Below are positions 48,715 to 50,835 of a stretch of 64,000 nucleotides of DNA, piece after piece (position 1 is the stretch's first letter; the number at the start of each line of letters is the position of its first letter). Position numbers and translations under genes: made by a program. Location: assembly GCF_900142545.1 (NCBI RefSeq), contig NZ_FRBF01000002.1, positions 124,001-188,000 on the forward strand, read 5' to 3'. Under the pieces are notes generated by a model that was not told the DNA's origin, made no database searches, and saw nothing but the letters and a program-made list of their open reading frames with translations. The DNA comes from Fibrobacter sp. UWT2. Lineage in GTDB: Bacteria > Fibrobacterota > Fibrobacteria > Fibrobacterales > Fibrobacteraceae.

Positions 48715-50835
48715 CTAGAATAGACTAGTTTGGACCGCTTCGGTTTGGTTGAGCGGTTGCGAATTTGGGGTATTTTCGGCGATTTGGGCAAGGAGCCAAG
48801 CTTCGTCGTGTACAGGAATCCCGAGTTCATTCGCCTTGGTGAGCTTACTTCCGGCGGCCTCGCCGGCCAAAACCCAGCTGGTTTTCTTGCTAACAGAACC
48901 GCTGACTTTACCGCCATTTTCTTCGATGAGCTTGCGGGCTTCATCACGGTCCATGGTCGGGAGCGTGCCGGTAATGACGGCGGTTTGACCTTGGAACAAG
49001 GTCTTTACGACGCCCTTGAATTCGGTGGGGCAGCCCAGCGCAATAAGTTCGTCAATTTCCTGCGTGTAGCGTTCCGTGTGGAAGAAGTCGTAGACGGACT
49101 TTCCGATGCGTTCGCCGACGTCGTTTACGTTCTGTAGGTCTTCGACGGTGGCGGTACGGATCGCTTCGAGAGTGCGGAAATGCTTAGCGAGGTTTCGGGC
49201 ACTGGTGCGGCCCACGAACCGGATGCCGAGACCGTGCAACAGGTTTTCGAGGCTACGCTCCTTGGAGGCGGCAATAGCGTCGTAGACGTTTTTGGCGCTT
49301 TTCTTGGCCATGCGTTCCTGCGATTCCAGGTCTTCGAGCGTGAGGCGGTACAGGTCGGGTATGCGCTTGATTTTTCCTGTGGAAATCAGGCTTGCGATGA
49401 GAGCGGGGCCGAGGTTTTCGATATTCATGGCCTCGCGGCTCACGAAATGTTCGAACAGGCATTGTACCTGCGCTGCACAGTGCATGTTTTCGCAGCGGAG
49501 AATGACTTCGTCGTCGATGTGGGTGAGCGGTTCGCCGCAAACTGGGCATTTGTCGGGAGCGGTCACAGGGACGGCCCCCGCCGGGCGGAGTTCTTTTTTG
49601 ACATCGGTGATTTTCGGGATGATTTCGCCGCCCTTCTCGACGCCGACGGTGTCGCCGAAGTGGAGGTCCAGTCGGGCGACTTCGTCAAAGTTGTGGAGGG
49701 TGGCGCGCTTGACGGTGGTGCCTGCGAGGCGCACGGGGGCAAGGTTCGCGACCGGCGTCACGGCCCCGGTGCGGCCCACCTGAAATTCTACGGAAAGGAG
49801 CGGGGTGTAGGCGCGCTCGGCCTTGAACTTGTAGGCGATGGCCCAGCGCGGGCTCTTGCTCGTGGTGCCGAGGGCGCGTTGCATAGCAAGGTCGTTCAGT
49901 TTCACGACCATGCCGTCGATTTCGAAGGGGAGGCTGTCGCGGCTCGCGCCAATCTGCTCCGAAATCTTCATGATTTCGTCGGTATTGTCTGCAGTCCAGT
50001 AGTCGTTCGTGTGGAACCCGAGCTTCTTGAGCTGCTGCAGGTTCTCTTCGTGCGTCTTGTTGTCGCTCTGCGGAATGTGGTAGGCAAAGAAACGCATCGG
50101 GCGCGTCTTGCATTCGGCCACGCTCTTGAGCTTGAGCGAACCCGAGACCGTATTGCGCGGGTTCTGGAAAATTTTCTTGCCTTCCAAGATGAACTGCTCG
50201 TTCAGGCGTTCGAAGGCCTCGCGTTCCATGTAGACTTCGCCGCGGACTTCAAAAGTGCCCTGCGGAATTTCGCTGGGGTCGATTTTTAGCTTCTTTGCGT
50301 CCAAGGTTTCGGGAATGTCTGCAATCGTGAGCGCGTTCAATGTCACGTCATCGCCCTGGGCTCCATCGCCGCGGGTGGCCGCCTGCTTCAAGCGTCCATT
50401 CTCGTACACAATCGAAAGACTTACGCCGTCAATTTTCCGCTCGCAGATCCAAGTATGAGGTGTGAGGTCGCGACCTTCGGTCGCTTTGAGGTTTGAGGTC
50501 TGTGTCTCGTCTAATGCAGCGATTCCTTCTTCGGCAGCCTTCACGAACTCCGCCATTTCTTCGGCGCTGTACACGTTAGCGATGCTGAGCATGGGCACGG
50601 CGTGTGCGACCTTTGCAAAATCGTTGGTCAAGTCACTGCCGACCCGCTGCGTGAGCGATGCATTGCCGCGAAGTTCCGGATACTTCGCTTCGAGCGCTTC
50701 CATCTCCTTGAGGCCAAAGTCGAAATCCTGGTCGCTCATGGGGGAGACGCCTTCTTTGTAGTAAAGGCGGCTTGCTTCTTCTAGCTGTTTCTTTAGCTCA
50801 AAATACCGGGTGCGGTCAATGTCTTTCTGATCCAT
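48715..50835 (-). CDS. ligA: NAD-dependent DNA ligase with a repeat-encoded insertion
   Basis: The 706-residue enzyme has domain Ia, the adenylation domain with catalytic Lys in CERKIDG (near residue 135), the OB fold, a Cys4 zinc finger ([10 protein letters not shown]...C...C near 430), helix-hairpin-helix repeats and a C-terminal BRCT domain ([23 protein letters not shown]). It seals nicks using NAD+. Just before the active-site Lys motif, about 15 residues ([15 protein letters not shown]) are encoded by a palindromic repeat read in frame; related ligases are shorter there. The ATG at 50835 is preferred to a TTG three codons upstream. Confidence 0.96.
50457..50500. repeat. GACCTCA palindromic repeat inside ligA, in frame
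   Basis: The 44-nt element has ends GAGGTGTGAGGTC and TTTGAGGTTTGAGGTC around a stem CGACC/GGTCG. It matches the intergenic element at 31720-31761 with a few changes. Translated with ligA it adds residues in the linker before the adenylation motif. Confidence 0.85.

Follow-up and report, generated by a model that had tools for sequence, protein, structure and literature searches.

The gene for the NAD-dependent DNA ligase LigA in the 64,000-nucleotide stretch of Fibrobacter DNA analyzed here (the window) contains a copy of a dispersed palindromic repeat that is read in frame directly ahead of the active site. The segment is a bona fide copy of this repeat and is absent from outgroup ligases, the contents of the site have turned over recurrently among Fibrobacter species, and the same pattern is found in TilS and CobA-HemD. 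We consider the LigA segment to be, with good probability, a short non-autonomous selfish repeat that likely folds as single-stranded DNA, consists of heptamer arms around an interchangeable hairpin and is tolerated in permissive protein loops. The phenomenon is wider than a single event in one gene, as the LigA loop is a hot spot occupied by numerous families of repeats, and other core genes behave alike.

The ligA element and its repeat family

The ligase is complete, with DNA_ligase_aden, OB, ZBD, HHH and BRCT domains found by profile search and a match to E. coli LigA (2owo) at E=7e-148. On the minus strand, the element reads ACCTCAAACCTCAAAGCGACCGAAGGTCGCGACCTCACACCTCAT and encodes 15 residues (Table 1). 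Its coding strand is arranged as ACCTCAAACCTCAAAG-CGACC-GAA-GGTCG-CGACCTCACACCTCAT, followed by T-W-I and then by the CERKIDG motif, which begins at residue 134 and places the catalytic lysine seven residues past the element. The element strand in ligA folds as a hairpin (z -2.3), and shuffles of the window gave an expectation of 0 matches to its 27-nt core. An earlier note had placed a palindromic repeat at 50457-50500, next to the catalytic site of an essential enzyme, and had matched it to an intergenic element; the repeat and its position are real, with slightly shifted borders, and the intergenic copy has CTCAAAGCGAC-GAA-GTCGCGACCTCA-ACCTC in common with it, the arms being the same and the stem one pair shorter.

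Table 1. Features of ligA and of the repeat copies in the window
Feature	Position	Strand	Basis
ligA, NAD-dependent DNA ligase, 709 aa	48715..50844	minus	ORF; Pfam; E. coli LigA 2owo match
In-frame palindromic element in ligA, codons 116-130 (15 residues)	50455..50499	minus	sequence; genome copies; absence from E. coli LigA and outgroups
Hairpin core GCGACC-GAA-GGTCGC, GNA triloop	50470..50484	minus	fold; stem complementarity across copies
5' heptamers ACCTCAA ACCTCAA	50486..50499	minus	sequence; tandem ACCTCAN pattern
3' heptamers ACCTCAC ACCTCAT	50455..50468	minus	sequence; tandem ACCTCAN pattern
Catalytic lysine codon, K137 of CERKIDG	50434..50436	minus	E. coli LigA alignment; invariant in LigA ortholog alignment
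Intergenic copy, same element family	31720..31761	plus	sequence; genome pattern matches
Intergenic copy just upstream of ligA, stem GGGCGC/GCGCCC, antisense to ligA	50885..50926	plus	sequence; pattern match

The family to which the element belongs (family A) has a unit of ~25-45 nt, in which CTCAAAG, a variable stem-loop and CGACCTC stand between ACCTCAN heptamers. We carried out a census by pattern searches and inspection of individual loci, with reversed patterns as controls. In the 3.49 Mb genome (49 contigs) from which the window was taken, ACCTCANACCTC yielded 23 matches compared with 0 for its reversed control, and CTCAAAG-N6..24-CGACCTC yielded 29 full copies compared with 1. The unit was present in 69 of the 80 genomes of the genus at up to 98 copies; genomes rich in it hold 98, 70 and 64 copies, while G003 and G029, although near-complete, have none. 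Within the class, it is nearly confined to Fibrobacter, with other genera essentially devoid of it save for one genome. In G128, which belongs to the same family but another genus, 33 copies of the unit were counted, suggesting horizontal spread or independent retention. A search of the window against Rfam returned tRNAs only and no Rfam family matched the element, while a literature search found no description of palindromic or heptamer repeats in Fibrobacter.

The outer 5 bp were fully paired in 54 of 103 distinct family A copies, compared with 2.7 after arm shuffling, and stems differ among copies yet remain complementary. The two strands are not equivalent: triloops were GNA in 41 of 76 cases and TNC in 2, and tandem G.A replaced Watson-Crick pairs in 27 hairpins whereas TC.TC did so in none. 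Since GNA triloops and tandem G.A pairs stabilize single-stranded hairpins, one strand is likely the folding strand. Further, all three reading frames are open on the CCTCA strand, whereas none is open on the TGAGG strand.

Other features of the window and of its surroundings were also recorded. The intergenic sequence that holds the copy just upstream of ligA is the same in L026, L063 and L072. The gene upstream of ligA varies among species, with an MntP-like pump in some and another gene in others (L030, L032, L036, L039, L046 and L069 compared with the window), which suggests rearrangement around ligA. The LigA C-terminus (window 48715-48740), ending in EAVQTSLF after a length-variable tail, resembles a sliding-clamp binding motif of the QxxLF type. 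Several different heptamers recur between genes in Fibrobacter, and arrays of another 7-nt repeat (GTAGGAA/GTAGACA/GTAGGCA) are located at 9165-9248, 18512-18546 and 41658-41712 of the window. A 60-nt inverted repeat (CGTGAGCCACAAGCGGCTCG..) at 14570-14629, 18609-18668 and 32418-32450 shows no sequence relationship with the heptamer elements. Additionally, ~600 bp of the 3' end of a pyruvate:ferredoxin oxidoreductase-like gene are duplicated 5.7 kb apart (31750-32363 and 37483-38096, 98% identical), the shorter copy being a fragment; a different repeat directly follows each stop codon, family A at one and GGAGATCCCCGCC..GGGGATGACA at the other.

Variable loops in LigA and other core proteins

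We aligned 47 LigA orthologs, including two from non-Fibrobacter relatives (L066 and L067); LigA relatives at 94-97% place the genome of the window in Fibrobacter. Residues 16 to 689 are nearly free of indels, the exceptions being one 1-residue indel near 259-262 and the loop ahead of the active site; nowhere else inside the protein do indels exceed one residue. Because the orthologs otherwise align nearly without indels, the loop is, as judged from the alignment, a single permissive hot spot. It measures 5 residues in L066 and L067, 8 to 74 in Fibrobacter, 8 in L061 and 23 in the window. The insertion of 15-18 residues proposed in the earlier note, together with its statement that the E. coli sequence lacks the stretch, is thus in good agreement with our alignments: the excess is +15 over the shortest Fibrobacter loop and +18 over the two outgroups, and 2owo aligns through the region without an insert. 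That all relatives might carry a homologous segment not built from the repeat, which would have spoken against the note, did not hold, as distant ligases have no such segment and those of Fibrobacter are non-homologous and built from repeats. In an AlphaFold2 model of LigA, a helix at 94-115 and a strand at 132-136 that carries the active-site motif enclose the region, which is modeled as a coil of low confidence (pLDDT under 50 at 114-127); the model is poor overall (mean pLDDT 65, pTM 0.42), and only the limits of helix and strand and the low confidence of the loop were taken from it.

At least four unrelated repeat families occupy the loop in different species, always in frame, with contents classed coarsely. 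Family A, with its ACCTCAN hairpin, is found in the window, L025, L026, L030, L032, L059 and L063. Family B appears as CTCAGGATGAC and ...CTCAGGATGACAAG, family C as GGTCAAGCC..GGAATGAC and GAGATTCCCGGTCAAGCCGGGAATGACAAG, and family D, GACGAGA heptamers with a hairpin, in L036, L038, L043 and L057. The loop of L069 contains TCCGAAT heptamers while those of L053 and L070 contain GTCATCCCGGCC in opposite orientation. Two of these families were also counted as dispersed genomic repeats without any control match, family B in 17 of 18 genomes (3-38 copies) and family D in 15 of 18 (5-78 copies). Family D is designed like family A (GACGAGAGAACG - hairpin - CTACAGAC) and favors GNA loops in the same one-sided way, on the TCTCGTC strand (23/49 vs 2/45). 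As its copies in LigA and HemD put the other, less favorable strand in the mRNA, single-stranded DNA rather than mRNA is the likely relevant form.

When loop contents were mapped by parsimony onto a LigA tree from which the loop itself was left out, family A required at least 4 changes and the other crude classes 5-10, counts that depend on one, probably recombinant, gene tree and on coarse classes. The pair L035 and L038 represents an empty and a filled site: L038 has 72 nt more, inserted in frame, with the heptamer GACGAGA at the flanks. Where a MITE-type non-autonomous transposon would have terminal inverted repeats and a target-site duplication, this one clean pair has a direct repeat formed by a heptamer that is also part of the array itself.

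The same element was found in other coding genes, where the earlier note had proposed to look for it. In the genome of the window, family A is read in frame in LigA, HrpB, TadA (at the N-terminus), a CbiX-Met8 fusion, CobA-HemD, RsmG and TilS (two copies); 8 of the 29 full copies lie inside genes identified by homology, and an N-terminal extension of TrpB and a membrane protein are less certain cases. Three reading frames of the element are in use (LKATEG.., PQSTEG.. and SSKGEA..). The coding copies checked are in sense orientation, as expected from selection against stops. In TilS, of which 30 orthologs were compared, there are three sites where 0-64 residues have been added, drawn from many types of repeat. 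At the second of these sites, L123, L127 and L131-L134 have a longer common insert, GVAG.A.EAPLEGVMEDRATG.NQG.TSP, which is not a heptamer family. CobA-HemD has one variable site of 12-67 residues, with empty forms in L168, L172 and L173, family A forms with identical cores in L165, L176 and L188, and a possible scar in L170.

Nucleotide conservation and competing explanations

Orthologous coding copies are conserved beyond the level of the protein. In six representative pairs of copies chosen by peptide identity, one pair per case, selected afterwards and mostly the more diverged, 0 of 74 codons inside the element were changed at the third position compared with 188 of 480 (~39%) flanking codons, and across all pairs tested element changes were limited to HemD_D (2/16) and LigA_B (1/11). 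Such synonymous identity suggests nucleotide-level constraint, repair from other copies or recent very-short-tract exchange, and counts against selfish, decaying insertions, which should drift. Around the loop, L035 and L056 share ~64 identical nt but differ beyond this tract, which favors exchange. In L036, L043 and L057, the arms are identical, but 5 sites differ in the 21-nt spacer that separates them and divergence of the flanks sets in right at the borders, a pattern that favors constraint or repeat-anchored repair and led us to reject recent transfer of the whole loop in these species. Gene conversion from an identical copy in the same genome was likewise rejected for LigA and HemD, where the exact cores occur once among the 29 full copies; for family D, which has its GGACCTTCGGTCC version in multiple copies, it is possible.

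These observations bear on how the loop acquires its contents. One tentative explanation holds that short-tract homologous recombination moves loop alleles from species to species as small cassettes and that recurrent insertion adds little to the present pattern. Besides the L035/L056 tract, it would account for loop types that conflict with the ligA tree (L036 with L043/L057, L035 with L056), for the identical loops of the window and L063 despite L060 and L025 lying between them, and for the variable gene upstream of ligA. However, the spacer and flanks of L036, L043 and L057 do not fit with it, and exchange alone does not explain why the recurrent loop contents are dispersed genomic repeats. 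That the repeats are functional nucleic-acid sites, serving a DNA- or RNA-binding protein, chromosome organization or DNA uptake and selected wherever they are located, genes included, seems somewhat less probable still. The absence of synonymous change and the strand-specific hairpin features of two families are in line with such a function, although short-tract exchange could also yield the identity, the contents of a given site are wholly different between species, empty forms exist and genomes of the genus hold anything from no copy to 98. A role in mRNA is further made unlikely by the strand used in the family D copies of LigA and HemD.

Adaptive diversification of the loop as protein, for example as a LigA tether or regulatory segment that recruits repeats as raw material, would fit with a single variable site adjoining the active site, but we regard it as improbable given that the peptides have no common composition or motif and vary with the local repeat stock, that unrelated enzymes show the same and that L061 manages with 8 residues. 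A coincidental match in an ordinary LigA segment is refuted by the zero chance expectation for the core, by the genome counts of 29 vs 1 and by the absence of the segment outside Fibrobacter.

Under the selfish-repeat explanation that we prefer, repeats would multiply through Fibrobacter genomes, mostly between genes, with one DNA strand presumably folding as a hairpin during spread and short heptamer homology possibly helping or anchoring insertion. Insertions in genes would survive only if in frame, free of stops and located in a tolerant surface loop, so that purifying selection would leave these and the intergenic ones. The LigA loop between helix 94-115 and the CERKIDG beta strand would in this way have been filled, changed and emptied many times, with an effect on the ligase that is likely near neutral because the loop contents are interchangeable. 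A REP/RAYT route is not supported because no Y1/RAYT transposase was found in this genome; a search with Y1_Tnp (PF01797) gave no match in it while 5 of 14 control genomes were positive. A more far-reaching and doubtful proposal is a modular system of palindromes folding as single-stranded DNA, with fixed heptamer arms, interchangeable GNA-loop hairpins and machinery other than Y1/RAYT, whose nucleotide sequence would be actively maintained even in essential genes, such that core enzymes would carry continually exchanged repeat-encoded loops.

Relation to known palindromic elements

The closest parallel, already drawn in the earlier note, is with the Rickettsia palindromic elements (RPEs), reportedly described by Ogata et al. 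in 2000. RPEs are palindromic, 105-146 bp long and conserved in sequence within a family, and lie between genes and in frame in conserved protein genes whose function tolerates them (PMC2229807); they are reported to lose repeat identity over time (PMC6649704). The parallel stands insofar as Fibrobacter palindromes are likewise both intergenic and in frame inside conserved protein genes. It does not extend to identity as an RPE, since the Fibrobacter units are shorter and have heptamer arms, their stems vary yet stay complementary, several families occur at one site and synonymous sites of coding copies are conserved. The element is therefore best called an in-frame coding palindrome that resembles RPEs in behavior, lies outside their size range and, judged from published descriptions, is distinct from them. 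Palindromic repeats with coding potential have been described in Wolbachia and Methanocaldococcus jannaschii (PMC2229807), alike in that respect but from different lineages. Inverted repeats inside protein genes of Nematomorpha mitochondria are gained and lost and apparently maintained (PMC6649704); unlike the Fibrobacter repeats, they are not dispersed families with constant arms and belong to another type of genome. REP elements of RAYT (TnpA-REP) systems are also short multi-copy palindromes with strand-specific hairpins, whereas the Fibrobacter repeats, although strand-asymmetric, have no conserved stem and are often located within genes, and no Y1_Tnp domain protein was found in the genome of the window.

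In-frame selfish palindromes in essential genes are known mainly from Rickettsia and Wolbachia, which are intracellular and have reduced genomes, while Fibrobacter are animal-gut bacteria with genomes of roughly 2-5 Mb. Core-gene alignments and annotations of Fibrobacter should be used with caution as they include repeat-derived segments. The palindromes of Fibrobacter are more diverse, and dozens of species serve as natural replicates for defined loops in LigA, TilS and HemD, which makes testable their movement without a known transposase, their neutrality to the host enzyme and the seeding of new protein sequence.
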